From the NCBI GenBank assembly GCA_028873125.1, contig JAGWMQ010000019.1:1-38139 (forward strand): DNA of 38,139 bases, written 5' to 3'. A program made the position numbers and the translations under genes. Positions 12,549-35,776 of the stretch are shown here, piece after piece. Under the pieces are notes generated by a model, which had not been told where the DNA came from, did no database searches, and saw only the letters and a list, made by a program, of their open reading frames with translations. The number at the start of each line of letters is the position of its first letter. Within the stretch, counting starts at the first letter, position 1. This stretch comes from Verrucomicrobiota bacterium (GTDB taxonomy: Bacteria > Verrucomicrobiota > Verrucomicrobiia > Limisphaerales > UBA11358).

Positions 12549-12553
12549 AATGA

Positions 12554-12677
12554 CGTTGAAGCGTTACAGGGTTGAAGCGTTCAAGCGGGAGCGTCGTGCG
12601 CCGCGCGTAACGATTTCATTTTCAAACGGTCTAATTTCCGTGACGCTCCAACGCTCCAACGCTTCAACGCTTTAACG
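12554..12677. repeat. Inverted pair of short-period repeats between pilB and pilT
   Basis: Left arm CGTTGAAGCGTTACAGGGTTGAAGCGTTCAAGCG (from 12554) and right arm CGCTCCAACGCTCCAACGCTTCAACGCTTTAACG (to 12677) are imperfect reverse complements. Confidence 0.75.
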
Positions 12678-12680
12678 AGT

Positions 12681-13790: not shown

Positions 13791-13796
13791 ATTCCC

Positions 13797-15497: not shown

Positions 15498-15510
15498 GCC
15501 GGGAAGCGTT

Positions 15511-16824: not shown

Positions 16825-16910
16825 ATCCTCCGCGTGCCGCCTGGATGCAGGCCCGTGCCAAGCCCGGACACCATGCCCGAGTCGCATTTTGATTTTTAAC
16901 GAAAAACCTG

Positions 16911-16977
16911 TTGACAACCCGCGACGCCCGTGCGTAAATACATTGTAAACACATTGCATGGGCGTTGAATTTACAAT
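16911..16977 (+). promoter_or_regulatory. Candidate promoter plus operator for the TA pair
   Basis: TTGACA 16911-16916; -10-like TAAATA 16935-16940; inverted repeat ATTGTAAA (16942-16949) / TTTACAAT (16970-16977); direct repeat ACATTG at 16940 and 16951, 11 bp apart. Confidence 0.5.
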
Positions 16978-16986
16978 TGGCTCGCT

Positions 16987-17274
16987 ATGGAGTTCGATTG
17001 GAACAATCCGCCTTTCGAGTTGGATGGTTCTTTGATTCAGCGAGATGTGGAAGAGTCCTTTGAGGATCCCTTCGCCATTCGCTTGTTGCCGGATTCGTCG
17101 CGATTCGGCCTCCAGGCCCGCTTTTTTAATCTGGGCATGACCGCGGCCGGCGTGGGCGTCTTCAGCGTCTATCGGACCAATGGACGGCTGGTCCGGGTGC
17201 TGCTGGCGCGTCCCTTCGACGCCGAAGAACGATTTTTTTACCAGCGGAAACGGGATCAAACCTTGCAAGGGTGA
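16987..17274 (+). CDS. BrnT-like toxin
   Basis: MEFDWNNPPFELDGSLIQRDVEESFEDPFAIRLLPD...GVGVFSVYRTNGRLVRVLLARPFDAEERFFYQRKRD; fits the BrnT pattern F-W...EE-F-DP-A...VY...R---AR-----ER--Y. Confidence 0.72.
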   Translation: MEFDWNNPPFELDGSLIQRDVEESFEDPFAIRLLPDSSRFGLQARFFNLGMTAAGVGVFSVYRTNGRLVRVLLARPFDAEERFFYQRKRDQTLQG

Positions 17275-17290
17275 CGGGTGAAACGTGGCG

Positions 17291-17325
17291 AGCTTGGGGT
17301 TTGGCGTCTGGCGTCTGGAATCCGG
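17291..17325 (+). repeat. Short-period repeat TTGGCGTCTGGCGTCTGG between toxin and antitoxin
   Basis: GCTTGGGGTTTGGCGTCTGGCGTCTGGAATCCGG; tandem GGCGTCT units. Confidence 0.5.
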
Positions 17326-17382
17326 GGGTTGAAACCGGATCGGCCGGGAAGCGAGACGCCGGCTCCCGGGCCCAAATTTGAC

Positions 17383-17658
17383 ATGCGAACCTTCGCCAAA
17401 TGGGAAGAGGTGCCGCTCTTCGACAGCGAAGAGGCCGAGGCGGCCTTTTGGGCGGAGAACCGCCCCAGCCTGCGGCTGATGGAGACGGCCGTGGCCGGCG
17501 GCGCCGAGGCCGCCGAATCGGTGACCATCACGCTGCGGATTGACCCGCGGATGCTGGCGCGCATCAAGCGGCTGGCGCGGGCGCGCTATTTGAATTACCA
17601 GAGCATGATCAAACAATGGCTGAGCGAGCGGATGGAAGACGAAATGCGTGAACGCTGA
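17383..17658 (+). CDS. CopG/RHH-type antitoxin
   Basis: MRTFAKWEEVPLFDSEEAEAAFWAENRP...VTITLRIDPRMLARIKRLARARYLNYQSMIKQWLSERM; ribbon-helix-helix-like C-terminus. ORF can extend to GTG 17278. Confidence 0.75.
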   Translation: MRTFAKWEEVPLFDSEEAEAAFWAENRPSLRLMETAVAGGAEAAESVTITLRIDPRMLARIKRLARARYLNYQSMIKQWLSERMEDEMRER

Positions 17659-17664
17659 AATGAC

Positions 17665-18402
17665 ATGAACAATCGCCGGACAGCGGAAAAGCGACGGTCG
17701 GGAGCCGGGAACAGCACCGGTTTCACCTTGATCGAACTGTTGGTGGTCATCTCCATCATCGCCGTCATCGCCGCCTTTCTGGTGCCGGTGGCCGGCGCGG
17801 TCCGGCGGCATGAGTTGATCCAGAAAACCCAGGCGGAGATGGCGCAACTGGAAACGGCCCTCAGCAGCTACAAGGCCGCCTACGGCTTCTACCCGCCGTG
17901 CAACCCCGATAATCCCATGATCAATCCGCTGTACTATGAACTGATGGGAACGACCAACATCGTGACTTCGCCGAAATTCCTGAAATATCAGTCGCTTGAT
18001 GATCCCGGTGTGCAAATCATTGGCGGCGGTCCAGGTACGCCAATGTTCTTCGCGTTCCATGTGTCCGGTTTCATGAATTGCAGCAAACCGGGCGCGGGAG
18101 AGGACGCCCCGAAGGCCAGAAGTTTTCTTGAGGATTTGAAACCGGATCAGGTGGCAAAGGGCTTCACGAACAGCATGATTCACCCCCCGGGCGTGGTCCT
18201 GCTGGTCGCCTCGGTGGGCGGACCGGACCCGAACTATCGCCCCTTGGGGGCGTCCGGCGTGAATCCCTGGCGCTACGTTTATCCGGGGACCAACAATCCC
18301 AACTCCTATGACCTGTGGGTGCAACTGGTCTTCAAGCCCGGCCAAACCAATCTCATCTGCAACTGGAGCCGCCAGGTGCAGATCAACGCTCCGCTGCCCT
18401 GA
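17665..18402 (+). CDS. GspG-like prepilin / pseudopilin
   Basis: Leader MNNRRTAEKRRSGAGNSTG, then FTLIELLVVISIIAVIAAFLVPV. Confidence 0.9.
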   Translation: MNNRRTAEKRRSGAGNSTGFTLIELLVVISIIAVIAAFLVPVAGAVRRHELIQKTQAEMAQLETALSSYKAAYGFYPPCNPDNPMINPLYYELMGTTNIVTSPKFLKYQSLDDPGVQIIGGGPGTPMFFAFHVSGFMNCSKPGAGEDAPKARSFLEDLKPDQVAKGFTNSMIHPPGVVLLVASVGGPDPNYRPLGASGVNPWRYVYPGTNNPNSYDLWVQLVFKPGQTNLICNWSRQVQINAPLP

Positions 18403-18674
18403 TGTCTTATGCGCCTGACCGCAAAATCCAGATTCCGCCCCCGGGGACGCGGGATTCCCGTGCAGTGGCGTGACTGCGTGTGGCCGGCGCGCGTGGTGGT
18501 GCGGTTGTCTCAGTGGCCGCGCCGCGAGCCGCCCGCCCGCGTTTTGAACCCCGGCGGCAGGCCGCGCCGTTCCCGGACGGCCGCGGCTTTCCGCGGCTTC
18601 CGGCCGGGTCGAACAGCATCGTCGCCTTTGACCCGCTTGCTTCGGGGGCGCCGCCGAATTCCTTTTTCAAGCCT

Positions 18675-19505
18675 ATGAAACCCATCAAGAAATGTGACCG
18701 GAGGCAGGTGACCCGTGACACGGACGGCAATCTGAACGGACGGCTCTTTCCGCGCCGCAGGTCGCGTGTCACCCGCCAACTTGCAGCCTTCACCCTCATC
18801 GAACTGCTCACCGTCATCGCCATCATCGCCATCCTGGCGGCCATCCTGTTGCCGGCCCTGGGCTACGCCAAAACCGCGGCGAAGAAGACGCAGGCCAAGC
18901 TGCAAATCAGCGACCTGGCCACCGCCATCCAAAAATACGATTCGGACTACAGCCGGATGCCGGTTTCGACCGCCGACCAGTTGCTGGCCGTCACCAACGA
19001 TTTCACCTTTGGCGGCGTGTTCCAAACCCCGACGGGCCCGACGACGATTGGCAACGTGACCACCAATTCCGATGTCATCGCCATTTTGATGGACCTGACG
19101 AATTTTCCCGACGGCGCGCCGACGGTGAACGCCAACCATGTCAAGAACCCCCAGCGGACCCTGTATCTGAACGCCAAGCGGGTCGCCGACACCGCCACCT
19201 GGCCGGGCGTCGGACCGGACCTGGTCTATCGCGATCCGTGGGGCGATCCCTACGTCATCAGCATGGACGTGAATTACGACGGCGAGTGCCGGGACGCCTT
19301 TTATTCGCGGTCGGCGGTTTCGAAACTCGATGGGAGCACCGGCTACTTTGGATTGGTGGACCCGACGGATACCGGTGGAAATGACAATAATTTCGAATAC
19401 CACGGCAAGGTGATGGTCTGGTCCGCCGGGCCGGACAAGAAAGTGGATCCCGGCGCCAAGGCCAACCAGGGCGTCAACAAGGACAACATCTTGAGCTGGC
19501 AGTGA
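18675..19505 (+). CDS. Prepilin-type N-terminal cleavage/methylation domain protein
   Basis: Leader MKPIKKCDRRQVTRDTDGNLNGRLFPRRRSRVTRQLAA, then FTLIELLTVIAIIAILAAILLPALGYAKTAAKKTQ. Confidence 0.88.
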   Translation: MKPIKKCDRRQVTRDTDGNLNGRLFPRRRSRVTRQLAAFTLIELLTVIAIIAILAAILLPALGYAKTAAKKTQAKLQISDLATAIQKYDSDYSRMPVSTADQLLAVTNDFTFGGVFQTPTGPTTIGNVTTNSDVIAILMDLTNFPDGAPTVNANHVKNPQRTLYLNAKRVADTATWPGVGPDLVYRDPWGDPYVISMDVNYDGECRDAFYSRSAVSKLDGSTGYFGLVDPTDTGGNDNNFEYHGKVMVWSAGPDKKVDPGAKANQGVNKDNILSWQ

Positions 19506-19507
19506 AG

Positions 19508-20440
19508 ATGAGCAGCAAGTGGCAAGCAGCAGGTGACAGATTGACGGCGGCGCGCGGTGCGCGCTTCTGTCCCACGTGCCGTGTCCCGTGCCGCATTCAT
19601 AGTTGTTCCAGCAAGCGCGCTACTCGCCCGCGATGCAAGAGCAACACAGGCTTCACGCTCATCGAGCTGCTGGTCGTCATTGCCATCCTGGGCATCCTGG
19701 CGGCGCTGACGGTGCCCGCGCTCAAAAATTTGGGCAAATCCTCCACGGTCACGGCCGCCGCCGCGCAACTGCTCGGCGACGTCGGGCGCGCCCGCCAACT
19801 GGCCATCGCCGATCACACCACCGTCTATATGGTGTTCGTCCCGACGAATTTTTGGAGCTATCTGCCCGCCGCAGTGAAAGATCTTCCTGCCACGAGCAAT
19901 CTGTGCGACAAGCAACTGACCGGTTACACCTTCATCGCCTATGGCGCCCTGGGCGACCAGCCCGGACAACACCGGTGGCACTATCTCGCTCCGTGGCAGA
20001 CGCTGCCGGACGGCATGTTCATCGCCCAGCAGAAGTTTGCGGAGCCGTCCGGTTTCTTTTATTCCATTCCAAAAATTCCCGGCGTGCCCTCGAGCGGAGC
20101 CTACGATGTCTATGGCTTCAACGTGACCAACACCATTCCCTTTCCCACGGAAACCAATCTGCCTGCGGTGAACCCCCCTTCCCAGCTTTATCTGCCGTAC
20201 ATCGCCTTCAACTACCTGGGGCAATTGACCTTTGACGGCCAGAACCTCGCCGGCCATGACGAGAACATTCCCCTGGCGCGGGGCAATGTGTTTTACGCGG
20301 TCAACGCCGACAAGGTGCCTCAGTTCAGTCCGCCGCAGGTGACCGTGTTCCCGCCCGGCAACGACACCAACGCCTACAACATCATCCACATTGACGCGCT
20401 CTCGGGGCGCGCCATTTGGGAGCAGCCGCGCGTGCAATGA
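19508..20440 (+). CDS. Prepilin-type protein (Verru_Chthon cassette D-like position)
   Basis: ~48-aa leader MSSKWQAAGDRLTAARGARFCPTCRVPC...SNTG, then FTLIELLVVIAILGILAALTVPALKNLGKSS. Confidence 0.87.
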   Translation: MSSKWQAAGDRLTAARGARFCPTCRVPCRIHSCSSKRATRPRCKSNTGFTLIELLVVIAILGILAALTVPALKNLGKSSTVTAAAAQLLGDVGRARQLAIADHTTVYMVFVPTNFWSYLPAAVKDLPATSNLCDKQLTGYTFIAYGALGDQPGQHRWHYLAPWQTLPDGMFIAQQKFAEPSGFFYSIPKIPGVPSSGAYDVYGFNVTNTIPFPTETNLPAVNPPSQLYLPYIAFNYLGQLTFDGQNLAGHDENIPLARGNVFYAVNADKVPQFSPPQVTVFPPGNDTNAYNIIHIDALSGRAIWEQPRVQ

Positions 20441-21336
20441 AAATTTTCGTCTGCCATTTTCCATTGCCGGGCGGGGCGGCCAGTCCGCTGGCCGCCGCCG
20501 GCGCGCAGAGGACTGCGCGCCCCACCGCGCGATCCGGCTTCACCATGGTGGAGATCGCCATCAGCCTGGCCATCATCGGCATCGCGCTGGTGGCCATCAT
20601 CGGCGTGCTGCCGATGGGCGTGAACGTCCAGAAACAGAACCGCGAGGAGACGATCGTTGACCAGGACGCCACCGTCCTGATGAACGCCATCCGCAACGGG
20701 GCGCTCGGCTCGGACGAACTGACCAATTACGTCTTTGCCGTCACCAATTTCTGGGGGTTGTACAACGCCAACGGCGCGAAGGTGAATTCCGGCGCCAATT
20801 ATTACAGCTACGCCAATTCCCAGGCCGCGCCCTCGCCGCGGGTGTTTCCTCAATTCAACCTCGACAGCGGCAGCAACATCGTGGCCTTGTTGAGCACGCC
20901 GGAGTATCAGGGCAACTTTGGCGTGCCCCTGGACAATCTTTCCGGCGGCGGTTACAGCAACCACATCGTGGCCTGCGTCCATTCCATCAGCGGGCCGGCG
21001 TCTGAAAAGCCGCCGCAAAACAACGACATCGTTGTCGGCGACTCCTTCAGCTACAAGGTGGTCTGTGCAAACCTGCCGGTGGCCGTGGAAACCAATCTCT
21101 TTTATCTGCCGACCAATGATCCGGCCTACGGTTACGGGCGGCAACTGACCGCCAATCTGCACGAACTGCGCCTGACCTTTCTCTGGCCGTTGTATCCCAA
21201 CGGCGGCGTCGGCAACGGGCGCCAGACCTTCCGCACCCTGGTGCCCGGACGGCTGGCCGCGGCGCCGAGCGCCCCGGGTCCGCGCGCGGCGTGGATTCAT
21301 TTCTTCCAGCCCCAGGCCTTCACCAACGCGCCATGA
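20437..21336 (+). CDS. Prepilin-type protein (Verru_Chthon cassette B-like)
   Basis: Leader MKIFVCHFPLPGGAASPLAAAGAQRTARPTARSG, then FTMVEIAISLAIIGIALVAIIGVLPMGVNVQKQNREETIVDQDA; ATGA overlap with upstream gene. Confidence 0.87.
   Translation: MKIFVCHFPLPGGAASPLAAAGAQRTARPTARSGFTMVEIAISLAIIGIALVAIIGVLPMGVNVQKQNREETIVDQDATVLMNAIRNGALGSDELTNYVFAVTNFWGLYNANGAKVNSGANYYSYANSQAAPSPRVFPQFNLDSGSNIVALLSTPEYQGNFGVPLDNLSGGGYSNHIVACVHSISGPASEKPPQNNDIVVGDSFSYKVVCANLPVAVETNLFYLPTNDPAYGYGRQLTANLHELRLTFLWPLYPNGGVGNGRQTFRTLVPGRLAAAPSAPGPRAAWIHFFQPQAFTNAP
20475..20521. repeat. REP-like palindrome pair inside prepilin leader coding sequence
   Basis: GGCGGCCAG-TCCG-CTGGCCGCC (20475-20496) and GGCGCGCAG-AGGA-CTGCGCGCC (20500-20521); opposite loop orientation, BIME-like. 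Confidence 0.8.
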
Positions 21337-22328
21337 ACCGGAAGTTCCAAGTTCCAGGTTCCAAGTTCCAAGTCCGGCGTCGGAACTTGAAAGGCGCGGC
21401 GTTGCGCCGCGGTTCCATCGCCGACCGCAAATCGGAGATCGCAAACGGGTTTACCTTGGTGGAAATCCTGGTGGCCATGGCGCTGCTCTCGCTCATCGTG
21501 CTGGCGCTGATGTCGGTCTTCAGCAACACCCAGGCCGCCTTCCGCGCCAACCTGACCCAGAGCGACGTGCTGGGTTCGGGCCGCCAGGTGATGGACCTGA
21601 TCACCCGCGACCTGCAGATCATGGCCCCGTCGGACGATTACAGCAACGGCGCGGTGAATTTTTACGCCGGTGTCAATCCGGACGGCCTGCTGCAATCGCT
21701 GCCCGGCAGCAGCCTGTCGCGCACCAACGTCCTGGAGGACTTTTTCATCCTCAGCCGCCGGAATGTGAACGGCGGCGACTGCTGGGTGGGCACCGGTTAC
21801 GCCGTGGTCATCAATTCGCCGGACGGCCTCTATTCCCTCTACCGCTTCACCGTCAAGCAGCCGGTCGCGCCACTCCTGAACGCGACCGTGGCGCGCGGGC
21901 CGCGGTATCTTTTTTACAACAGCAACAAGCTCTACCCGACCAACTTTCAAAATTTCCTGCTGGCGCCGACCAACTACAGCCATCTCCTGGACGGCGTGGT
22001 GGCCCTGCGCGTGCGCGCCTATGATGCCGGCGGCTACCCGATGGCGAACCTCTACCAGTTTGAGGCCACCCGGTGGGTGACCAACCGAAACGTCCTGTTC
22101 TTCGCGCCGCAAAATGGCGAGACCGGTTTTTCCTTTTACAGCAATTCCCTGCCGGCGTCGGTGGAAGTGGAACTGGGCGTGCTCGAAGACCACACCCTCC
22201 AGCACGCCGAAGGCCTGGTGGACAACTGGACCGTGCTGACCAATTACCTCGCCCAGCACGCCGGCCAGGTCCATCTCTTCCGCCAGCGCGTCTGGATCCG
22301 CAATTGCGACCCCTCGGTTTACCAATGA
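21333..22328 (+). CDS. Prepilin-type protein (Verru_Chthon cassette C-like)
   Basis: Leader MNRKFQVPGSKFQVRRRNLKGAALRRGSIADRKSEIANG, then FTLVEILVAMALLSLIVLALMSVFSNTQAAFRANLTQSD; ATGA overlap. Confidence 0.87.
   Translation: MNRKFQVPGSKFQVRRRNLKGAALRRGSIADRKSEIANGFTLVEILVAMALLSLIVLALMSVFSNTQAAFRANLTQSDVLGSGRQVMDLITRDLQIMAPSDDYSNGAVNFYAGVNPDGLLQSLPGSSLSRTNVLEDFFILSRRNVNGGDCWVGTGYAVVINSPDGLYSLYRFTVKQPVAPLLNATVARGPRYLFYNSNKLYPTNFQNFLLAPTNYSHLLDGVVALRVRAYDAGGYPMANLYQFEATRWVTNRNVLFFAPQNGETGFSFYSNSLPASVEVELGVLEDHTLQHAEGLVDNWTVLTNYLAQHAGQVHLFRQRVWIRNCDPSVYQ
21341..21391 (+). repeat. Short-period repeat (AAGTTCCAAGTTCCAGGTTCCAAGTTCCAAGT...) in leader
   Basis: Tandem ~8-9-nt units AAGTTCC/AGGTTCC, followed by inverted tail GGAACTT. 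Confidence 0.75.
21417..21448 (+). repeat. Short-period repeat ATCGCCGACCGCAAATCGGAGATCGCAAAC in leader
   Basis: Alternating GA(T/C)CGCAAA / TCGGAGATCGCAAA units encoding IADRKSEIAN. Confidence 0.65.
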
Positions 22329-25300
22329 AACCTCCCTTTACGATTTACGATTTGCGATCTGGGATTTGCAATGGAGCGGGCAGGGCGCGCCACTCCGCGC
22401 GCGCCGCCGACGGCGGTCAGAGGACTGGCCGCCCTGCCCAATTGAACGCCCATCGTCAATCGTCAATCGTCAATCATAATTCCCAAAGCGGCATCGCCCT
22501 GGTCCTGACGGTCATTTTGCTGGCGGTGGTCACGGTCATGGTCCTGGCCCTGCTGGCGGTGAGCCGGCGCGAACGCGGCGCGGTGACGACCACCACCGAC
22601 CAGACCACGGCGCGATACGCCGCCGACGCCGCCCTGGCCAACGCCGAGGCCCAGATCATGGCCAACGTCCTGGCCCACACCAATCCTTATGATTTCGGCC
22701 TGGTGGTTTCGACCAATTACATCAATCCCTACGGGTTCCAGCCCGGCGTCGCCAATCCCACCAACGTCAACTACGATTATCGGGCTTCGGGCGGCGTCTG
22801 GAGTCAAAACGATTTCCTGCAAAACCTGGCCAATCTCTATTACAGCCCGCGCGTGCCGGTGTTCATCCCCAACCCGACCAATCCGTCGGCGCGGCCCGAT
22901 TTCCGCTTCTACCTGGACCTGAACCGCAACGGAGCGTTCGACACCAACGGCGTCGTGGAGAAAGTGGACAACGAAGGGAATCCGCTCGGCCCCCTTTCCG
23001 AAACCGGCGATCCCGAATGGATTGGCGGCCTGGAGCGGCCCGACGCGCCCTACGGGCCGGACAATCGTTTCCTCTACCGCTACGCCTTCGTCGCCCTGCC
23101 CGTCGGCAACACGCTGGATTTGAATTACATTTACAACTACGCCAAGCGCCGGCCCCCGATGCGCAGCGGCAACGACAGCTTTTATCGGAACGAAGGCGTC
23201 GGTTCCTGGGAAATCAATCTGGCCGCGTTTCTGGCGGACTTGAACACGGACGAATGGCTGCCGCTCGAGCCGCCCAACAACCAATACTACAATTACAGCA
23301 CCAGCCTCTTTGATCCCAACCGCGGCAAGGCCTTCGACGACGCGTTTTCTCTCTTGTATTACCGTTACGGCAGCAGCCAGAACGGCTTCAACAACCTGGC
23401 CTCGGTGGACAATCTTTTTGGCGTTCCCGGCGCCGACGCCTTCCTCTACGACAACGTTGACGGCTACGCGGGCGGGCCGCTGATGACCGGCCTCCAGTTG
23501 CCGCTGGACAACGATCATCCAGCGTGGTCGTGGCCGGGCGCGGACAACCCAATTCATTTCTTCGATATGCAGGAGTTGTTCGACCGCAGCAAAGCTGCGG
23601 CCGACCGCACCCCCAACCTCATCGCCAACGGCGCCGATTTCACCGACCATCTCCTCGCCGCCGGCGCGGACACCTTTGGCGGCAAGGTGGTGTCCACCTA
23701 CGACCGCTACACGTTTTACCGGCTGCTCTCCCAACTGGGCACCGACTCGGCGCCGCTGCAAAACCGGATCAACCTCAACTGGTCCAACGCCGTCGCCCGA
23801 TTCGACCCTTACACCGGGGTGGCCACCAACATCGCCGTCTTCCCGGACGCGCAAACCAATTTTGCCCCGTGGGACCCGCTGCAGTTCTTCACCATCACCG
23901 CCGACCGGCTGCTGCGCGCTTATTCGGAGGAATGGCTGGCCGAAAACCCGACCAACTACGTGGCGACCTACCGCCTGGCCACCAACATCGGCACGTTCGT
24001 CAATCCGGTCTATGTCCCGGTGCCGTTCGGCATCACCAACATCCCGGTGGTGGTCAACGGACAGTTTGTCTATTCGCCGGCCATCCAGCGCGTGCTCCAA
24101 TTGGCGGCGAACATTTGCGACGCCACCACCAACCGCGCCGCCGTGTTCGGACGGGATTATCCGTCGGTCTTCAAACCGCTCTTCCTGGTCCAAGGCACTC
24201 CTGCGGGAGTCGTGACCAATATTCTGATCGTCGGTTATCAGGCGGTGACAAACTTCACCAGGTTCCCGGCCTATAACGATCCGCAACTGTTCCCGCCGGT
24301 GGACTGGCATAATCTGCGCGCCGGCTTCAGCGCCATCAATTATGGACCCAACGGGGTGAACGTTTTTGGCGTGCCGTGGATCATCGGCGCCAAAAAGGGT
24401 TTCCCCAACTTCAATGAGTTTTCGATGGAAAGCGTCGTGGGCATCACGCGCCGGCTGCAGGTCACCCGTCCGGCGACCAACACGGCGACGGTGAATCTCG
24501 CCGCGTTCCGGACCAACCAGATGTATATCATGACCGTGACCAACTTTCTGGGCGTGGAATGCTGGAATTCCTACACCAACACCTACACCAACCTCGGCCC
24601 GCTGAGCATCGTGGTGCGCGATTACTTGACCGCGGCGCTGAACAACGACGCCGGATTGCACGTGCCCTTCAACGCCGCGTACAATCTGGTCCCGGCGCGG
24701 ACCATCCCGGCCACGCCGCCCTACTGGCCTAGTTCATTCCCGTGGACCGGCGACGGCAAGCCCAGTCCGCTTTCCTTCGACATCCCGTTCATCACCGAAG
24801 CGACGATGCCGCTGAACACCGGCTTCGCAAACAACCCGGGCTGGTGGACCTATGTCCGCGGGGCCAATGATTTTGTGCCCGTCCCCAACGCTCCGCTGTT
24901 CGAGACCGGCGTCAATCTGGCCGACGCCTTCCCGCGTTTTACCCTGTTGACCACCAATTGGCTGCAGGTCTTCATGCTCGACGGCAATCACGTCATTGAT
25001 TACGCCTCGTTCGCCGGGCCGGTCACCATCCGGGATTTGAACGCGGAATTTTTCACCGACGACAACAACGGGGTCTGGAACACGAACCTGTCCACGACCG
25101 GCGCGCCGGACGGAGTGGTCAATCAAGTCATGATTTCACGCGGCGCGGCCCTGACTCCCAACTCGCTGCCGCCGCCGGAAGACGGCGCCTGGCACGCCGA
25201 TCCCGAAGCCGTTCCGCTGGGCGGCACCGTTGCCCAGCAACAGGCCTATTTTGACGCCTTCTTCAAGCCGTATAACATCGGCGCGGCCCGCAACGGCACG

Positions 25301-26713
25301 CGCGCCACGAACGTCCAGTTGAGCGTCCAGGCGCCTTACGCGCCCACGCGCTTTGTGGTGGATTACACCACCTGGCAGGCCAATGATCCGCTGGTGCATG
25401 ACCTGGCCAGCGATTTGAATTACACGGGACCGACGAGCGGCGGGCTGGCCCCGGGCACCAACACCTTCAATTACACGGCGTCCAATTCCATTCCCATCCT
25501 GCCCAATCTGGGCAAGCTGAACGAACACTATTCGCCCTGGGGCGGCTCGCCGTACTTCAGTTCCTCGCCGGCCGACACCAGCAGCCAGGCGGCCCTCACC
25601 CGGTACAACCTGGCCGTCAAGGACCCGCTGGTCTGGCGCTCCGACGACTGGTATTTCCCGGCGAACAAGCTGCCCACCACCGGCTGGCTGGGCCGGGTCC
25701 ACCGCGGCACGCCCTGGCAAACGGTCTATCTCAAATCCCCGGACGTGCTGGCGGAAGTCGCCGCGAGCGGTCCTTTGGCGGGACAAAATATCGGCGTCAG
25801 CTCCTGGGCCCAATGGACGGGTGACACCCGGGTGACGACCAACGGCCAATACTTTGACGCCATCAACAGCGCGCCCGACCAGGACCGGCTGCTCTTTGAC
25901 CTGTTCAGCGCCGCACCCGACGACAACGCCACGCGCGGAACGCTTTCGGTGAACGTGGACGCGAATGAGATGAACACAAACGAACCTGCCACGCTCGCCG
26001 CCGGCCTGGCCGCGTGGTCGGCGCTGTTCAGCGGGGTCATCGTGCTGTCCAACACCGCGTCGGATTCGCTGCCGCAATACGTCCAATACTTCCCGCAACA
26101 TCCCGGCACCCTGCCCGCCGCCAGTTTTCCCATCCAGCCCGCCGGTCCGGCCTACACCAATTCGCCGCTGGGCCGGATCGTTGCCGGCATCAACGCCGCC
26201 CGCGCCAATTTCGTGAACGTGGGCGGGCTTAAAGGCGCCTTCGAGCACACCGGCGACATTCTGGCCGTGCCGCAGTTGAGCGTCGCCTCGCCGTTCCTGC
26301 ACGTCAGCAACTATGTCAACAACGCCTGGGCGGACGACCCTTATCAAAAGGAAAACGGCGTCAGCGACGAGATGTACGAATGGCTGCCGCAGCAGGTGAT
26401 GTCGCTGTTGCGCTGCCCCAGTTCGCCCCGCTACGTGATTTATTCCTTCGGCCAGGCGCTCAAACCCGCGCCCAACTCGATTTTCACCGGCGGCGACACG
26501 CTGGCCGACGGCCGGTCCGCCTTCGGCATGGTCACCAATTACCAGGTGGTCGCGGAAGTGGACACGCGCGCCGTGGTGCAGTTCGACGGCACCGTCACCA
26601 ACGTGGTCTCCGTCACCAACGATTTTTCGGGATTCCCGCACCTGTTCACGATGCCCGTGGTGACCAACAGCCGCGCCGTGATCCAAAAATTCAACGTCCT
26701 GCCGCCCGAATAA
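22325..26713 (+). CDS. Very large prepilin-type/PilX-GspK-like protein (~1462 aa; Verru_Chthon cassette A-like)
   Basis: Leader MKPPFTIYDLRSGICNG...HRQSSIVNHNSQSG, then IALVLTVILLAVVTVMVLALLAVSRRERGAVTTTTDQTTARYAADAALANAEAQIMANVL; ATGA overlap; ORF 22073..26713 trimmed. Confidence 0.85.
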   Translation: MKPPFTIYDLRSGICNGAGRARHSARAADGGQRTGRPAQLNAHRQSSIVNHNSQSGIALVLTVILLAVVTVMVLALLAVSRRERGAVTTTTDQTTARYAADAALANAEAQIMANVLAHTNPYDFGLVVSTNYINPYGFQPGVANPTNVNYDYRASGGVWSQNDFLQNLANLYYSPRVPVFIPNPTNPSARPDFRFYLDLNRNGAFDTNGVVEKVDNEGNPLGPLSETGDPEWIGGLERPDAPYGPDNRFLYRYAFVALPVGNTLDLNYIYNYAKRRPPMRSGNDSFYRNEGVGSWEINLAAFLADLNTDEWLPLEPPNNQYYNYSTSLFDPNRGKAFDDAFSLLYYRYGSSQNGFNNLASVDNLFGVPGADAFLYDNVDGYAGGPLMTGLQLPLDNDHPAWSWPGADNPIHFFDMQELFDRSKAAADRTPNLIANGADFTDHLLAAGADTFGGKVVSTYDRYTFYRLLSQLGTDSAPLQNRINLNWSNAVARFDPYTGVATNIAVFPDAQTNFAPWDPLQFFTITADRLLRAYSEEWLAENPTNYVATYRLATNIGTFVNPVYVPVPFGITNIPVVVNGQFVYSPAIQRVLQLAANICDATTNRAAVFGRDYPSVFKPLFLVQGTPAGVVTNILIVGYQAVTNFTRFPAYNDPQLFPPVDWHNLRAGFSAINYGPNGVNVFGVPWIIGAKKGFPNFNEFSMESVVGITRRLQVTRPATNTATVNLAAFRTNQMYIMTVTNFLGVECWNSYTNTYTNLGPLSIVVRDYLTAALNNDAGLHVPFNAAYNLVPARTIPATPPYWPSSFPWTGDGKPSPLSFDIPFITEATMPLNTGFANNPGWWTYVRGANDFVPVPNAPLFETGVNLADAFPRFTLLTTNWLQVFMLDGNHVIDYASFAGPVTIRDLNAEFFTDDNNGVWNTNLSTTGAPDGVVNQVMISRGAALTPNSLPPPEDGAWHADPEAVPLGGTVAQQQAYFDAFFKPYNIGAARNGTRATNVQLSVQAPYAPTRFVVDYTTWQANDPLVHDLASDLNYTGPTSGGLAPGTNTFNYTASNSIPILPNLGKLNEHYSPWGGSPYFSSSPADTSSQAALTRYNLAVKDPLVWRSDDWYFPANKLPTTGWLGRVHRGTPWQTVYLKSPDVLAEVAASGPLAGQNIGVSSWAQWTGDTRVTTNGQYFDAINSAPDQDRLLFDLFSAAPDDNATRGTLSVNVDANEMNTNEPATLAAGLAAWSALFSGVIVLSNTASDSLPQYVQYFPQHPGTLPAASFPIQPAGPAYTNSPLGRIVAGINAARANFVNVGGLKGAFEHTGDILAVPQLSVASPFLHVSNYVNNAWADDPYQKENGVSDEMYEWLPQQVMSLLRCPSSPRYVIYSFGQALKPAPNSIFTGGDTLADGRSAFGMVTNYQVVAEVDTRAVVQFDGTVTNVVSVTNDFSGFPHLFTMPVVTNSRAVIQKFNVLPPE
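22337..22372 (+). repeat. Short-period repeat TTTACGATTTACGATTTGCGATCTGGGATTTGCAAT in leader
   Basis: Tandem (T)TTACGA / TTTGCGA / GATTTGC units encoding FTIYDLRSGIC. Confidence 0.7.
22384..22433. repeat. REP-like composite element inside leader coding sequence
   Basis: GGCGCGCCACTCC (22384-22396) plus GGCGGTCAG-AGGA-CTGGCCGCC (22412-22433); same two units recur inverted at 37864-37940. Confidence 0.75.
22453..22480 (+). repeat. Short-period repeat CGTCAATCGTCAATCGTCAATCATAAT in leader
   Basis: Three tandem CGTCAAT units encoding RQSSIVNHN. Confidence 0.75.
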
Positions 26714-26835: not shown

Positions 26836-29800
26836 ATGAAAGCTCGTCCCTGGTTCTGGTTTTTGGTGTGCCTGTTGTGTTTGGGCGGGGCGTGGTATGC
26901 GTGGCGGGCCGGAGACCGCTGGGCGGCGCGGCAGAGGAAGGTTTTGCCGCGACCGGCCGAAAGCGTCCGCTCGGCCTCGACGGCGCCCAAGCTGTTCACC
27001 CTGCCAGCCGCTGCGACCAACGCCGTCAAAGCCGCCGCGGCGGCCGCAGCCACCAACAAGTTCGCGTATCGGTTGAGCAACACCCGCGAGCCGATTGGGC
27101 GGCTGGCGCGGGACGACCAGGCGATCTTGCTGGCCAACGCGCTGATAGACACGAGCCGGCCGCTTTTGTTGGCGATCCCCCGGAGCCTGCGGACGCCGGG
27201 CGATCCTGGGGCCTACATCGTGCAGTCGCGGGGGCCGATGCCGGCGGCCTTCCAGGCCAGGCTGCGGGCGGCGGGGGCCAGGCCGGTGGCCTACATCCCC
27301 AACAACGCCTGGCTGGTGCGGGCGGACAAGGCGGTGGCTGACAAGCTGGCGGGCGATCCGCTGACGCAGGCGGTGCTGCCCTACGAGCCATATTACAAAC
27401 TGGACGCCTCGCTGATGGGCTGGGTGGGCCGGACCTTGCCGCCGGAGGCGATGTTGAACGTGGCAGCTTATCCGGACACGGCGGAGGCGGCGCGCGCGGC
27501 GCTGGAAGGGATGGGGGCAACCATCGTGGGATTGGACCGCTCGCCCTTTGGGGAGGTGTTCACGGTCCGGGGGGTCGGGGACGTGGCGGCGGTGGCGCGT
27601 ATCCCCGCGCTGCAAATCGTCGAGCCGTTCCATCCGCGTCAGCCGGCCAACGACCTGAGCCGGGTGGCGGTGGGGGTGGCCGCCGACACGATCACCAAGA
27701 CCAACTACATGAACCTGACCGGGAAGAACGTGACGGTGGAGGTCAACGACACCGGCATAGACACGAACCATCCGGATTTGACCGGCCGCGTGCTGCTGGA
27801 TTTTGCGGGCAGCGGGAATGACACCGACGGCCACGGGACGCACGTGGCGGGGATCATCGCCGGAGACGGCGCGAAATCCTACACCATTGATCTCAACACC
27901 AACACCCTTCCGTCGGGGTCGGTCCTGGACTCGAATTCTCCCAACGCCGATTTTCGCGGCATGGCGCCGGCGGCGGCGCTGTTTTCGGTGGGCGCCCTGA
28001 ACGGCGGCCACGACACGAATTATTTTGTCCAAGGGTCGAGTTTTTTCCTTCCGGTTCTGCCGACCTTTTTCACTTCCACCCTGGCGGAGGGGCAGACCAA
28101 CTTCTTTGTGCCGGGCCGGTTTCCCGACTGGTATTTGCAGGAGGCGGCGGCGGCGACCAACGCGCTGATTTCCAACAACAGTTGGGACAACGGCGACCCG
28201 GCCTATGACCTGGCGGCGGCCAGCTACGACGCGGCCACGCGGGACGCGCTGCCGGGGGTGGGCGGCTCACAGCCGGTGCTCTTTGTGTTTGCGGCGGGCA
28301 ACGCCGGGGGCGGCAAGGACGACGGGAGCGGCGGCAACCCCGACTCGATCCTCTCGCCGGGGACGGCCAAGGACGTGATCACCGTGGGGGCCATCGAGGA
28401 GTTCCGGAACATCACCAAGGTGGTCACCAACCTGTTCGACACGCCCACCACGCCCTGGCAGCCGGAGACCGACTCGGGCTACCAGGTGGCCGGTTTTTCG
28501 AGCCGGGGCAACACGGGCATTGGGGTGGAAGGGGGCTTTGGGCGGTTCAAGCCCGACGTGGTGGCGCCGGGGACGTTTGTGGTCTCGACGCGCTCGGGCC
28601 AGTGGGATCAGGCGGCGTATTACAATCCGACCAACTATCATTTCAGCAGCTACACCTTCCAGCAGGTGGTGCCGGACACGCCCATTTATTACGACCTGGA
28701 CCTGTCCACGCATCCCAACACGGTGGGGGTGAGCCTCCAACTGGTTCCCAACTCGCAGTCGGCGCAGCCCTTTTCGACCAACCTGTGGCTTTATGTCCGG
28801 GCGGCCGGCTATCCGACGCCGGCGACCTACGACATTTTAAGCAAGACCAACGCGGTGAACATTCCGCCCGACGGCGGGGCGGGGTATTTGGCCACGGCCA
28901 TCGCCCAGGGCAACCTGTTTTTGATGGTGACCAACACCGGGACGGCGGCGGTCAATTACGACGTGGACATCGAACTGGTCACGACCAATGACAACGGGAA
29001 TGAACTGACCGTCCTGAGCAACCTGAACAACACGCTGGGAAAGAACCCGAATGGGCCTTGGTATTATCGCTATGAGACGGGCACCAGCATGTCGGCGGCG
29101 GACGTGTCGGGGGTGCTGGCGCTGATGCAGGATTACTTCACCAACCAGCTCGGCACCCTGCCCAGCCCGGCGCTGCTCAAGGCGATGCTGATCAACGGCG
29201 CGCGCCCGACGGGCTTCTACAATCTGCAGGTGGCCAACCCCATCAACTTCGAGGGCTGGGGCCTGGTCAACCTGCCCGACAGCCTGCCGACCAACCTGAC
29301 CAGCCGGTTGGACGTTCCCTGCGCGGGCTTTTTCCAGGACCAGAGCACGGCGGACGCCCTGGCCACCGGGCAGCGCCGGACGCTGTTCGTGACGGCCACC
29401 AACGTGCAGCCGCTGCGGGTGACGCTGGCCTGGACCGATCCGCCGGGCGACCCGGCGGCGGCCATCAAGCTGGTCAACAATCTGGAACTGGTGGTGACCA
29501 ACCTGGATGACCCGACCAATCCCATCATCTATTACGGCAACGACATCCCGGCCCAAAGCGACTTCAACTCGGCCCACGGGACCAATTCGCCGCCGACGTT
29601 CGACACCATCAACAACATCCAGAACGTCTATCTGCCGCCGGGGGCGGGCACCAACTTCTCGGTCACGGTGCTGGGCTGGCGGGTCAACGTCAACGCGGTG
29701 AGCGCCCAGACCAATGATTTCAACGGCGCGTATGCGCCGGACATCGTGCAGGATTACGCCCTGGTCATCTCCAGCGGCGAGGGCCAGATCACCAACGCCC

Positions 29801-32800
29801 TGACGGTCAGCGCCACCAGCCCGCTGGCGCCGGGACCTTCCTATTCGGCCAATCCCACCGGAGACCAGCAAATCACCTACGTGGCCACGGGGCTGAGCGG
29901 CACCAGCGGGCCGCTGCTCAACCAGAGGGTGGGGGCCAACTCGCCGTTGCTGGGGACCAACACCCTCCAGATCGGCGCGGGCAGCCAGATCAACGGCCTG
30001 ACGCTGGGCGCCAGCCCGATGGTGGTCACGGTGGGCCAGACCGACCAGTGGCATTTCTACGTGGTGACCAACACCACCGGCTTCACCAACGCCGCCTTCG
30101 TCACCTTCGCGCCGCCGACGCTGTCGGTGCCGCGGATGGGGGCCCTGGCCGGCACGCTGGACAACGCCACGCGGCCGGAGGCGGACATTGACCTGTACGT
30201 GAGCACCAATCCGGGGCTGACCAACCTGGACCCGGTGGTCGTCTCCAACGCCGACAAGTCGCTGGGCCGGCTGGGCGAGGAGTTCGTCGCCTACAGCAAC
30301 TCGGTCCAGGGCGAGATTTATTACGTGGGCGTCAAGTCCGAGGACCAGATGTCGGCGCTCTACAACTTTCTGCCCATCTTCAGCCAGACGCCCTTCAGCG
30401 TGATGCGCAACGGCAACGAGATCGTCACCGGGGTGCCGGTGCCGGCAGCCATTCCCGGGGGCAACCCGGCCGTGCCCGGCTACACCGACGTGGTGGGCAT
30501 CGCGCTGTATCCGATCACCATGCGGCGGGTCGTCGTCGCCAACGCCCTTTACGCCGAGGACCTGGGCGACCTGGTGGGGGCGGTGACGCACAACGGCCGG
30601 CACGTGATCTTGAACAACCATTCCCTGCCGGTCAACGGGCCGGGCGGTTACGAGTTCATCTACGACGACAGCGGCCAGAACGATGTCCTTCCCGATCCCA
30701 ATCCGCCGCTGGGCTACACGTCCTTCGTCAAACCCAGCGACGGGCCGGGGAGCCTGAGCACCTTCGTGGGCCAGCAGGGCGTGGGCGTGTGGATTCTGCA
30801 CGAATCGGACAACGTGGCCGGCTACAGCAACGTCATCGACTCCTTCAACCTGACGATTGAACCGCACGTCTCCCATCACGGCACCACCGTCACCACCACC
30901 GTCACGCCTGGCACCTGGTTTTACGATTATGTGGACGTGCCGCCGGGGGCCACCAACCTGACCATCACCGTCACCAACCTGACGGCCACCGGCGAGGTGG
31001 ATTTGTATGAGAAATACGGCGCTCAACCGACCCTGACCAATTACGACCGGCGCGTGGCGATCATCCCGCCGGCCACAGTGGGCACCCTCTCCGTGGGTCC
31101 GCCCTTGACGGCCGGGCGCTATTGGTATGGCATTTACAATCCGGGCACCATCGCCCAGGAGCTTTCCATCACCGTCAATGTCGGCCTGGGCGCGGCGCCT
31201 GGCCAGGTGGTCTATCCATCCACCGACACGCCCAAGCCAATCCCGGACGAGGCGGTGATGGACGATTCGATCTTTGTGCCCGACGACCAGATCATCTCGT
31301 CGCTGGACGTGGGGATTGCGGTGGAGCACCCGCGCATTTCCGACCTGGTGTTCCATCTCATCGGCCCCGACGGCACCCGCGTCCTGCTCATGGAAAACCG
31401 CGGCGGCACGAGCACCAACGGAGCGGGGGGAGCGGCTTTCCTCACCACCAATGCGGTAATGGCCGGCAGCTTTGAGGGATTGGCGGGAGACTACGCCGCC
31501 GGCCAGACCGTGGCCGGATGGACGGTATCGAGCAATCAGGTCAGCGTGGTCAACGATCCGACCAACGCCTATCCGGGCGCCAGCAGCTACCTGGCGCTGG
31601 CCAATGGAACCCTCTCCGCCACCGTGCCCACCGTTGCTGGACAGACCTACACGCTGTCTTTCGCCTACCGCGGGCCGGGCATTGTCGGCTGGTGGCGGGC
31701 GGAAGGCAATGCCAACGACAGCATTTATGGAAATAATGGCACGTTGGCGAATCCCACTTACCTCTATTATACCAACGGCGAAGTGGGCAGTTCATTTTTC
31801 GTTAATACTGTTCCTCCTGGCACTTATGTGGGAGTGGATATTCCTGATTCGCCGTCTTACGTGCTTACCAATTCATTGTCCATCGAAGGTTGGATCCGGC
31901 CTGTCGGGGGTGGGGTTGTTTTCTATCGGGGAGACAATCGCACGGGTTTTGATCCTTATGCTATCTCGGTAAATAACAGCCCCGAGCTGTTCTTTGACAT
32001 CACAGACGGGGCGGATAATGTCGCCCAAGTTGCCAGTCAGCCGCTGAACTATGATCGGTGGTATCATATCGCGGCCACACTGGACGGCAATTCCGGCACG
32101 ATGAACTTGTACATCAATGGCATTTTGGTTGGCCAAACCAAAACGGCCATCCGGCCGCTCGGCAACTTGATCGCAACCGATCATCCGGGCGTCGGCATCG
32201 GCAACGTCAACGACGGGTATAACAATTTTCCGTTCTACGGGGCCATTGATGAAATGTCGTTGTATAACCGCGCGCTTTCGGCCTCGGAGGTTCAGGCCAT
32301 TTACGACGATGGCATTGGCGGCAATCCCGAAGGCGGCAATGGCAAGTTTGCTCCCGCCGAATTCTCCGTTTCGCCCGCTCAATCCCTGGCCGAGGCGGCC
32401 GCCAGTGTCAACGGCGGCGCGCCGATCATGTTCACCGGCGACAACACCAACTGGCAGACTACCAACATCACCTTCACCGCCACGCAAAATGCGGCGACCC
32501 TCCAGCTTGCCGGGATGGAGCCGGGAATGCTGTTGGATGCCGTGAATTTGACGACCGTGGAGACGAACTACTCCTACCTCGTCTTTACCGAAAACACCAA
32601 CCTGACCACCACGCCCATCAAGTTCGCGCCCGCGCCCTTCACGCCCGGGCCGGCCACCAACACCGCGGCGGTCCTGGTTTATACCAATAACTTCGAGGGC
32701 CTGACCGCGACGGATGCCGGAGCCGGACAGACCGTGGCCGGCTGGACGGTCACGGGCAACCAGGTGAGCGTGGCCACCGACCCGGTGACCTCCGATGGCG

Positions 32801-34560
32801 GCACCAACTACCTGGCCCTGGCCAACGGGACCATCGCCACCATCCTGCCCACCGTCGCCGGAGACACTTACACGCTCACGTTTGCCTGCCGCGGACCGGG
32901 ACTGGTTCATTGGTGGCGGGGGGAATCGGGTTCCAGCGCGGTGGATGTCATCGGCGGCAACAATGGCGCGCTGATGGGAAATGTCACACTCACCAACGCC
33001 GAGGTCGGTCAAGGCTACTACTTCAACGGCAGCGATTACATCAATGTGCCCTTCAGCCCTGCGCTTCAGTTCACAAATCAGTTCACGTTGGAAACGTGGT
33101 GGGAGGACATCGCAACACCAATCCCCGGAGGTTATGGACTAATCTCTGATCGCCACATGGATCCTCAACCCGTCAACTTTGCCATCAACGTGGTGAACAA
33201 TAATGGGCTTGGCGGCTTGGGCATTTACTACAATGACCTCAATTATTTTTGGCCGGGTAACACCAGCGACGATCAGAACGATCTGGAGACATCAAGATAT
33301 CCCGTCATACCATCGAAGGGAGTGTTTCATCATTTGGCGGCAGTTTATCGACAGATGGGCGTAACCAACATTGAGTTGCAAACATACCTTGACGGACAAT
33401 TGGTTAGAACCAAGGTCATGCCGGGGAATTTCTCCAATACCCTGAACACTGATGCGGTAACCATCGGTACTACCTCCACACTTGGGGAATACCTCACGGG
33501 GATTATCGATGAGATGTCCATCTATAATCGCGCCCTGTCCGCATCGGAAGTTAATGCCATTTATACCGCCCGCGGCGCCGGCAAATTCGACCCGGCGGTT
33601 TACGCGACCTCGCCGGCGCAAAGTCTCGCCAAGGCGCAAGTCAGCGTGATTGGACAGGCGCCAACCACGATTTACGGCAGCGACACCAACTGGCAGACCC
33701 AGACCATCACCTTTACCGCCACTCAAGACGGAACGCCGCTGCAAATCATCGGCACCAAGCCGGGCATGTTGCTGGACAATTTCGCGCTCACCCAGGTGTC
33801 GAGCGGGCCGGATTTGTATTACCTGCCCGAACAGCCGCTCGACGCTTTCGACGGCCAGGACGCCTACGGCAACTGGACGCTGGAAGTCCAGGACGACCGC
33901 GCGGGGGCCGGGCCGACCAACTGGCTGGCCAGTTGGCAGTTGCGGTTCATCTACACCACCGCCGGCGGCGTCGGCTCGCTCAATGTGGTGCCGCCGCCAA
34001 CCAACACCATCATCCCCGCCGGCGGCCTCGAATATTATTTGATCAACGTCCCCGCCAACGCCAGCTTCGCCACCAACCTGCTCTCTGGCGCCAGCGAGCC
34101 GCTGAACCTGTGGTTCAACCAGACCTCCCAACCCACCGGCACGGGCGCGGCGGGCGATTACCTGCTGCTGTCAGGCGTGACCAACGGCCTTTCCGTTTTA
34201 ACCACCAACAGCGCGCCCGCAAATATCGTGCCCGGCGGCAGCTATTGGCTGGCCGTCCAAAATCCCAACGCCACCAACGCCAGTTACAACATCGAGGTGG
34301 ATTTCGACGTGCCCGGCGGCAGTCTGCACCCGCGATTCACCATTTCCGCCGCCAACGTGACCAGTGCCGGCGCGACGCTGCAATGGACGGCGCCCACCAA
34401 CGACCAGTTCCAGGTGGCCTGGGCGTCCAGCCTGACGCCGCCGATTGGATGGACCACCAATTCCGCCGTCATCACCTCGACTGATGGAATGTTTACGTTC
34501 GCCGACAGCAGCGCAACCAATGTCCCCACGCGGTTCTACCGGCTCATTCTGTTGCCATAG
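26836..34560 (+). CDS. Giant secreted S8 subtilisin-like serine protease (2574 aa) with P-domain and two LamG-like domains
   Basis: Catalytic Asp VEVNDTGIDTNHPDL (27748), His DGHGTHVAGIIAG (27832), Ser YETGTSMSAADVSG (29086); P-domain DLVFHLIGPDGTRVLLMENRGG and AYGNWTLEVQDDRAGAGPTNWLASWQLRF; LamG blocks GWWRAEGN...NRALSASEVQAIY and HWWRGESG...NRALSASEVNAIY; N-terminal TM/signal segment. Confidence 0.93.
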   Translation: MKARPWFWFLVCLLCLGGAWYAWRAGDRWAARQRKVLPRPAESVRSASTAPKLFTLPAAATNAVKAAAAAAATNKFAYRLSNTREPIGRLARDDQAILLANALIDTSRPLLLAIPRSLRTPGDPGAYIVQSRGPMPAAFQARLRAAGARPVAYIPNNAWLVRADKAVADKLAGDPLTQAVLPYEPYYKLDASLMGWVGRTLPPEAMLNVAAYPDTAEAARAALEGMGATIVGLDRSPFGEVFTVRGVGDVAAVARIPALQIVEPFHPRQPANDLSRVAVGVAADTITKTNYMNLTGKNVTVEVNDTGIDTNHPDLTGRVLLDFAGSGNDTDGHGTHVAGIIAGDGAKSYTIDLNTNTLPSGSVLDSNSPNADFRGMAPAAALFSVGALNGGHDTNYFVQGSSFFLPVLPTFFTSTLAEGQTNFFVPGRFPDWYLQEAAAATNALISNNSWDNGDPAYDLAAASYDAATRDALPGVGGSQPVLFVFAAGNAGGGKDDGSGGNPDSILSPGTAKDVITVGAIEEFRNITKVVTNLFDTPTTPWQPETDSGYQVAGFSSRGNTGIGVEGGFGRFKPDVVAPGTFVVSTRSGQWDQAAYYNPTNYHFSSYTFQQVVPDTPIYYDLDLSTHPNTVGVSLQLVPNSQSAQPFSTNLWLYVRAAGYPTPATYDILSKTNAVNIPPDGGAGYLATAIAQGNLFLMVTNTGTAAVNYDVDIELVTTNDNGNELTVLSNLNNTLGKNPNGPWYYRYETGTSMSAADVSGVLALMQDYFTNQLGTLPSPALLKAMLINGARPTGFYNLQVANPINFEGWGLVNLPDSLPTNLTSRLDVPCAGFFQDQSTADALATGQRRTLFVTATNVQPLRVTLAWTDPPGDPAAAIKLVNNLELVVTNLDDPTNPIIYYGNDIPAQSDFNSAHGTNSPPTFDTINNIQNVYLPPGAGTNFSVTVLGWRVNVNAVSAQTNDFNGAYAPDIVQDYALVISSGEGQITNALTVSATSPLAPGPSYSANPTGDQQITYVATGLSGTSGPLLNQRVGANSPLLGTNTLQIGAGSQINGLTLGASPMVVTVGQTDQWHFYVVTNTTGFTNAAFVTFAPPTLSVPRMGALAGTLDNATRPEADIDLYVSTNPGLTNLDPVVVSNADKSLGRLGEEFVAYSNSVQGEIYYVGVKSEDQMSALYNFLPIFSQTPFSVMRNGNEIVTGVPVPAAIPGGNPAVPGYTDVVGIALYPITMRRVVVANALYAEDLGDLVGAVTHNGRHVILNNHSLPVNGPGGYEFIYDDSGQNDVLPDPNPPLGYTSFVKPSDGPGSLSTFVGQQGVGVWILHESDNVAGYSNVIDSFNLTIEPHVSHHGTTVTTTVTPGTWFYDYVDVPPGATNLTITVTNLTATGEVDLYEKYGAQPTLTNYDRRVAIIPPATVGTLSVGPPLTAGRYWYGIYNPGTIAQELSITVNVGLGAAPGQVVYPSTDTPKPIPDEAVMDDSIFVPDDQIISSLDVGIAVEHPRISDLVFHLIGPDGTRVLLMENRGGTSTNGAGGAAFLTTNAVMAGSFEGLAGDYAAGQTVAGWTVSSNQVSVVNDPTNAYPGASSYLALANGTLSATVPTVAGQTYTLSFAYRGPGIVGWWRAEGNANDSIYGNNGTLANPTYLYYTNGEVGSSFFVNTVPPGTYVGVDIPDSPSYVLTNSLSIEGWIRPVGGGVVFYRGDNRTGFDPYAISVNNSPELFFDITDGADNVAQVASQPLNYDRWYHIAATLDGNSGTMNLYINGILVGQTKTAIRPLGNLIATDHPGVGIGNVNDGYNNFPFYGAIDEMSLYNRALSASEVQAIYDDGIGGNPEGGNGKFAPAEFSVSPAQSLAEAAASVNGGAPIMFTGDNTNWQTTNITFTATQNAATLQLAGMEPGMLLDAVNLTTVETNYSYLVFTENTNLTTTPIKFAPAPFTPGPATNTAAVLVYTNNFEGLTATDAGAGQTVAGWTVTGNQVSVATDPVTSDGGTNYLALANGTIATILPTVAGDTYTLTFACRGPGLVHWWRGESGSSAVDVIGGNNGALMGNVTLTNAEVGQGYYFNGSDYINVPFSPALQFTNQFTLETWWEDIATPIPGGYGLISDRHMDPQPVNFAINVVNNNGLGGLGIYYNDLNYFWPGNTSDDQNDLETSRYPVIPSKGVFHHLAAVYRQMGVTNIELQTYLDGQLVRTKVMPGNFSNTLNTDAVTIGTTSTLGEYLTGIIDEMSIYNRALSASEVNAIYTARGAGKFDPAVYATSPAQSLAKAQVSVIGQAPTTIYGSDTNWQTQTITFTATQDGTPLQIIGTKPGMLLDNFALTQVSSGPDLYYLPEQPLDAFDGQDAYGNWTLEVQDDRAGAGPTNWLASWQLRFIYTTAGGVGSLNVVPPPTNTIIPAGGLEYYLINVPANASFATNLLSGASEPLNLWFNQTSQPTGTGAAGDYLLLSGVTNGLSVLTTNSAPANIVPGGSYWLAVQNPNATNASYNIEVDFDVPGGSLHPRFTISAANVTSAGATLQWTAPTNDQFQVAWASSLTPPIGWTTNSAVITSTDGMFTFADSSATNVPTRFYRLILLP
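31471..33800 (+). repeat. Tandem duplicated ~1.1-kb module within the subtilase
   Basis: Copy 1 FEGLAGDYAAGQTVAGWTVSSNQVSV...LQLAGMEPGMLLDAVNLTTV (31471-~32563) and copy 2 FEGLTATDAGAGQTVAGWTVTGNQVSV...LQIIGTKPGMLLDNFALTQV (32692-~33800). Confidence 0.88.
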
Positions 34561-35484: not shown

Positions 35485-35510
35485 AAACTGTCTCTATCGC
35501 CCGTAAAAAT

Positions 35511-35650
35511 GGGGAGCGCGACCGTCCCGGTCGCGGCGGACGGCGTCCCGCCGACCGCTTTTCGCACCACGTCGAATGATGTCTCGAATCGCGCGAGAGA
35601 ATGTTTCCGGCCAGAGGCCGAAAACGGCGGGCGCGACGCCCGCGCTCCCC
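35511..35650. repeat. ~140-bp REP/BIME-like element with inverted termini
   Basis: Terminal IR GGGGAGCGCG (35511-35520) / CGCGCTCCCC (35641-35650); internal hairpins such as GCGACC-GTCCC-GGTCGC and GCGGGCG-CGA-CGCCCGC. Confidence 0.7.
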
Positions 35651-35776
35651 GAATCATCCGCCTCGTTCCAGATGAGGGTTCATGGTGAGCCCCGGCCTCC
35701 AGGATTGGACGCGCATTGGAACCATGAATCCGGCGGGGACGGCGCGCGGCGCAATCGTTCCGCCGGCTGAGGCGCG

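Follow-up and report, generated by a model that had tools for sequence, protein, structure and literature searches.

The DNA analysed here, which we call the window, is a stretch of 38,139 nt on the forward strand of contig JAGWMQ010000019.1 (assembly GCA_028873125.1), from a Verrucomicrobiota bacterium (Limisphaerales; UBA11358). It harbours a gene on the + strand (26836..34560) whose 2574-aa open reading frame matches the peptidase family PF00082 (E=3e-34). The Peptidase S8 region extends approximately over 27691..29295 (+) and contains the Asp/His/Ser triad, which is kept wherever it is covered in the alignment of orthologues (D 65/65, H 67/67, S 68/68). Profile match and triad together show that the product is a subtilase with intact catalytic residues and predicted activity. 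Besides Peptidase_S8, Pfam detects two stretches of Laminin_G_3 and a P_proprotein domain in two stretches, and NCBIfam adds choice_anch_C (TIGR04362), with the N-terminal half in its best stretch. The orthologues are distant from one another, at about 70% identity in the protease part. The gene is present in 43 of the 49 genomes of the genus, nearly always as a single copy, and a sample of the class contained hardly any cases outside the order. We compared the corresponding regions of 40 relatives and then of 40 more. The named relatives are metagenome-assembled genomes (MAGs) of Verrucomicrobiota subdivision 3/Limisphaerales, several of them from bog and other environmental samples.

The subtilase gene has a conserved neighbourhood. 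Upstream, and on the same strand, lie type IV pilus/T2SS-like genes (10845..22328, +) that comprise PilB-, PilT-, GspE- and GspF-like members and five pseudopilins. They are followed by a large pseudopilin-like gene (22073..26713, +; GspK/Verru_Chthon_A-like, with a TIGR02600 N-terminus), the true start of which is probably later than that of the ORF. A homologue of this large gene is found directly upstream of the subtilase, in the same orientation, in 60 of 60 loci that have enough upstream DNA for the comparison, and the association with type IV pilus/T2SS genes is thus one of conserved linkage. The gene order suggests that the adjacent type IV pilus/T2SS-like machine may export or display the subtilase. 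In the literature that we searched, we found no paper naming Verru_Chthon. Directly downstream of the subtilase, positions 34693-37719 hold genes for an FkbM-type methyltransferase and for an arylsulfotransferase.

Architecture of the second P-domain

The subtilase has two P-domains. The first (30448..30870, +) is uninterrupted and is recognised by its own profile; it serves as an internal control. Pfam P_proprotein matches this domain in 14 of 24 orthologues and not in the window copy. The second is divided. Its N-terminal piece, PN (31240..31431, +; aa 1469-1532), matches positions 3-43 of PF01483 with 28 bits, and its C-terminal piece, PC (33814..33954, +; aa 2327-2373), matches positions 52-86 with 24 bits. 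When the two are stitched together, the match covers positions 3-86 with 49.6 bits, approximately the sum of the parts (cutoff 21). An earlier note on this DNA had proposed that the P-domain is split into an N- and a C-part, and the parts and coordinates that it gave were correct. It had missed a feature between the two inserted modules. The segment in question (32575..32640, +; aa 1914-1935) has the sequence YLVFTENTNLTTTPIKFAPAPF in the window, and it is a conserved middle strand of the P-domain itself, which we term PM. This strand, typically YLxFTEDTNLTTTPIKFAxPPF, occurs within the insert in 77 of the 79 orthologous proteins that have PN. Because this strand lies between the modules, the P-domain is divided into three, and each module sits in a loop of its own, designated slot A or slot B; the layout is PN-[slot A]-PM-[slot B]-PC. 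The copies that had been described as duplicated in tandem therefore sit in two different loops, with a strand of their host between them. In the window the three pieces are separated by gaps of 384 and 392 aa; the stitched match spans PF01483 as a whole, and contiguity, which is usual for the family but not strictly defining, is absent. Slot lengths in these proteins range between 3 and 951 aa for A and between 8 and 975 aa for B. In one relative (L072:6963-13614), the protease and the split P-domain are distributed over two overlapping reading frames, and this copy may therefore be frameshifted.

Each slot of the window contains a module that is itself interrupted. In slot A, the first half of module 1 (N1; 31450..31680, +) matches TIGR04362 positions 14-83 with 37 bits, and the second half (C1; 32338..32556, +) matches positions 115-155 with 17 bits; LamG1 (31681..32337, +) lies between them. 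In slot B, LamG2 (32902..33579, +) is flanked in the same manner by N2 (32665..32901, +; positions 21-83, 30 bits) and C2 (33580..33798, +; positions 112-153, 15 bits). Both modules are cut at the same point, as had been noted before, and this point follows ‘..YTL.FA.RGPG’. The interrupting domain is Laminin_G_3 (PF13385); its two stretches together reach 137 bits, with the cutoff at 27.6. Stitched modules match TIGR04362 over the length of the domain, N1+C1 with 56 bits (positions 21-155 of 157) and N2+C2 with 45 bits. Since these scores fall below the curated cutoff of 120 bits, we refer to the modules as choice_anch_C-related and not as members of that family. Among contiguous modules of orthologues, 23 of 24 match TIGR04362, and a profile built from such modules matches PDB chains of CBM4-type jelly rolls (xylanase and alginase chains).

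Each host domain thus has uninterrupted homologues, in the form of contiguous modules and of orthologues with near-empty slots, and these represent natural intermediates without LamG or without modules. Together with the split profile matches and the stitched scores, they confirm the predicted nesting in the window, with LamG inside a repeated module inside a P-domain. A structure model of the window protein (from 27 sequences) had a mean pLDDT of 67; the ends of the P-domain and module 2 were modelled well, and LamG1 poorly. In Foldseek searches, the best match to this model was the lectin-like domain 4 of an arabinanase, and further matches included a T. turnerae domain of unknown function and the lectin pilin PilC (7oa8).

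Contents of the two loops across the order

A census of the 61 orthologues that retain all host segments revealed that the contents of the slots vary widely. Slot A holds a previously undescribed domain in 36 proteins, a circularly permuted LamG in eight, a module with LamG in four (including the window), a legume lectin in two, and a module without LamG and a C-type lectin in one each; it is empty in nine. In slot B we found a module alone in 24 cases, a module with LamG in 13, and a module with a LamG that contains a C-type lectin in nine; six are empty, and nine have other combinations. The latter include an NHL propeller in the module loop where other proteins have LamG. By parsimony over a quickly built host tree, with states labelled by hand, at least 12 changes of content in slot A and at least 22 in slot B are needed among these 61 orthologues. 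Across the order, unrelated folds occupy these two loops and the loop within the module, with many changes on the host tree.

The most common occupant of slot A is a domain of approximately 105-140 aa (YNFYTVPDxMTVYYG...LTIVMNQ...WxYT; for example, L035:11285-11608 and L037:4656-5042). It corresponds to no Pfam family, and a profile search of the PDB returned no significant relative. It also occurs once in slot B (L108). As this domain and the NHL propellers illustrate, not all of the cassettes are lectins.

The nesting reaches four levels in 11 orthologues, in the order P-domain, module, LamG, C-type lectin, LamG, module, P-domain (for example, L049:7968-10493). These proteins are 55-71% identical to the first row of their alignment. 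Lectin_C exceeds its cutoff in L054 and stays under it in L049; a structure model of the four-level nest failed, at a pLDDT of 41. An alternative description of slot B in L049 and others, as two side-by-side LamGs, was discarded; we now read the region as one LamG interrupted by a C-type lectin.

The permuted LamGs lie directly in the P-domain loop at slot A, with the C-terminal half before the N-terminal half (L042, 9253-9993; L101; L104, 9207-9926; L105-L107; L109; L110). A rotated LamG profile matched most of these domains in one piece, those of L042 and L101 with about 102 bits, compared to the 71-75 bits that the normal profile gives for its best half; it did not resolve L106. Four further loci, from another collection (L139, L145, L146 and L150), have this reversed arrangement or, where the contig is truncated, the first half of it. 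L146 (CAMBEJ010000044.1) is titled as a MAG of Akkermansia muciniphila, and it is a full member of the family; it possibly derives from a mislabelled or mixed bin.

The best explanation for these observations, to which we assign a probability of roughly 0.6, is that the gene encodes an active secreted protease whose P-domain presents exchangeable, putatively glycan-binding cassettes. The second P-domain would be a display scaffold, and mostly lectin-like cassettes, drawn from a genome-wide pool, would be gained, lost and exchanged by recombination at its fixed loops. Such cassettes could direct the protease, whether secreted or associated with a pilus, towards glycans or surfaces as these change. 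Loops that merely tolerate insertion, with contents that drift and have no role in binding or targeting, would account for orthologues such as L067, in which the slots are nearly empty and the protease is intact. We nonetheless consider drift of this kind unlikely: the reading frame is kept through the inserts, which are intact and mostly have lectin-type folds, and the four-level nest has been kept in 11 orthologues at the identities given above.

Histories of LamG1 and LamG2

The two LamGs stand out in base composition. At fourfold-degenerate sites, the GC fraction is 0.72 in LamG1 and 0.65 in LamG2 (0.69 together), compared to 0.80-0.88 in the four module halves and 0.93 in all of the listed non-LamG segments taken together (LamG versus the rest of the gene, p=2e-21; module halves versus LamG, p=1e-4). 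Further, the GC3 values of the LamGs are 0.61 and 0.62, and the minimum among non-LamG stretches of similar length sampled in the gene is 0.81. LamG has a lower fourfold GC than its host in 18 of 20 orthologue modules. The notion that LamG coding sequence is GC-poor in general was not upheld by LamGs in other, non-host genes, which as a group have no such drop, and by the four-level clade (means of 0.85 for the host, 0.90 for LamG and 0.85 for the C-type lectin). The simplest reading is that the LamGs of the window were recently imported from sources of lower GC content; effects of local mutation or recombination could also account for the difference.

All three parts of the two composites are clearly alike, with alignment scores between copies of 218, 190 and 193 for the N-half, LamG and C-half (shuffled maxima 28, 14 and 20). 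Identity is 63% in the N-half, 56-58% in the C-half and 39-42% in LamG. In a tree of 22 LamGs, LamG1 groups with the slot-B LamGs of G007 and G053 (100/100), and LamG2 with those of G016, G050 and G196 (99/97). A clade of LamG1 plus LamG2 is rejected (p-AU 1.4e-51; 3e-47 with more rows). When LamGs of other proteins are added, LamG1 falls in a 14-row clade (99/88) that consists mostly of LamGs of non-subtilase genes. These trees show that LamG1 and LamG2 are not sisters. A tree that holds the module halves of the window together, by contrast, is compatible with the data (p-AU 0.53); the two LamGs are of different lineages, and the modules around them fit together. A relative with a module and LamG in slot A, L036, has a different type of LamG (p-AU 0.0008), yet its module halves fit with those of the window. 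When the module halves are constrained to the groupings of the LamGs, the constraint is rejected in a 22-row tree (p 0.002 and 0.005) and not in a 55-row tree (p 0.09 and 0.25), which makes this the weaker direction of the comparison; the trees of the module halves are built on only about 125 columns and have weak support.

LamG1 and LamG2 thus look like separate later imports or replacements. In such a history, related modules would have come into slots A and B, and each LamG would have been inserted or replaced afterwards, independently of the other. Copying between slots also occurs in the family. Both slots of L138 contain a module with LamG, and there the LamGs are sisters (53% identical, with module halves at 43% and 38%, the reverse of the window). 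In L054 (8583-9125), the C-type lectin of slot A is approximately 50% identical to the LamG-nested one in slot B, both its own and those of its relatives, which suggests the copying of cassettes from one slot to the other.

Could the composite nevertheless stem from an old copying event, after which gene conversion preserved the likeness of the module halves and the two LamGs diverged or underwent partial replacement? The higher identity of the module halves (63% and 56%, versus 42% for LamG) can be read in this way, and N1 is also close to slot A of L036. But LamGs of both types are found in slot B in relatives that carry an unrelated domain in slot A, which means that the types are not fixed by slot, and the low fourfold GC of both LamGs suits a recent entry; we judge this history to be improbable. 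More improbable by far is the one favoured in the earlier note, namely that LamG entered a module first and that the module with its LamG was then duplicated in tandem inside the P-domain. It would explain the shared insertion point, the likeness of all three parts and, in L138, the sister LamGs. It is opposed by the rejection of a LamG1-LamG2 clade, by the location of the copies in different loops, by the greater proximity of LamG1 to LamGs of other proteins, and by the existence of orthologues in which neither of two modules has a LamG (L051 and L072) or just one of them does (L036). That there is no nesting at all, and that the region consists of independent, contiguous domains and linkers, is barely credible even with a structure model of only moderate quality, given that the halves match consecutive parts of their profiles, that their scores add when stitched, and that uninterrupted homologues exist. 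Least credible is an assembly or binning artefact: the window and its relatives are MAGs, but the frame of 2574 aa is single and open, with no internal stop, and the same architecture appears in independent assemblies (L138, L036 and L041).

Relation to known systems

Nested insertions of the form A1-B1-C-B2-A2 have been surveyed in ECOD, where they reach a depth of six levels, in cyanobacterial RNA polymerase, and where inserts tend to be smaller than their hosts (median 115 versus 199 residues; PMC13114784). Our case is like those architectures in that a domain that interrupts another is itself interrupted (PMC13114784). It runs against the trend in size: LamG (219-226 aa) is larger than its module (~148 aa), and the modules (~370 aa) are larger than the P-domain (~133 aa). 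It differs also in that the content varies between orthologues, in two loops and at several levels.

The combination of a subtilase with P-domains is shared with other S8 proteases of the PF00082 plus PF01483 type; here, however, large nested inserts lie in the second P-domain, whose core is divided into three. The modules resemble the choice_anch_C (TIGR04362)/DUF642/CBM4-like group, insofar as the contiguous forms in orthologues match TIGR04362 and CBM4-type chains. Unlike that group, both window copies are split by LamG, and in relatives NHL propellers or other domains are found in that loop. A further parallel is PilC of Streptococcus sanguinis, a lectin-bearing modular minor pilin for which glycan binding has been shown (PMC9934059). 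Both systems associate a ConA-like lectin module with a type IV pilus, in our case through gene linkage; the lectin-type domains described herein reside in a protease beside pseudopilin genes and not in a pilin. Our search of a literature collection with few subscription papers found nothing specific on this architecture, on Verru_Chthon cassettes or on interrupted P-domains.

To our knowledge, nested domain insertion has usually been studied from single examples. In the present family, one orthologous gene, usually one per genome, exists in near-empty, one-, two-, three- and four-level states. The same family adds two loops, a circularly permuted insert and repeated swaps; in the window gene, the base composition carries a trace that may point to recently added layers. 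One can thus test, in a single family, in what order and direction and how fast domains are inserted, and its members taken together are more striking than the window case alone.

More tentatively, and at somewhat less than even odds, we propose that the system is a recursive cassette-exchange platform, in which a pilus-linked protease would swap lectin-type folds at fixed loops at several depths. If this is true, the lineage could quickly alter its specificity for surfaces or glycans, with the protease and the host domain staying conserved. If the cassettes do bind glycans, the secreted protease would carry a plug-in display scaffold that evolved naturally and would be useful for protein engineering. 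These findings point to an unstudied, putatively pilus-linked protease system in uncultured Verrucomicrobiota.
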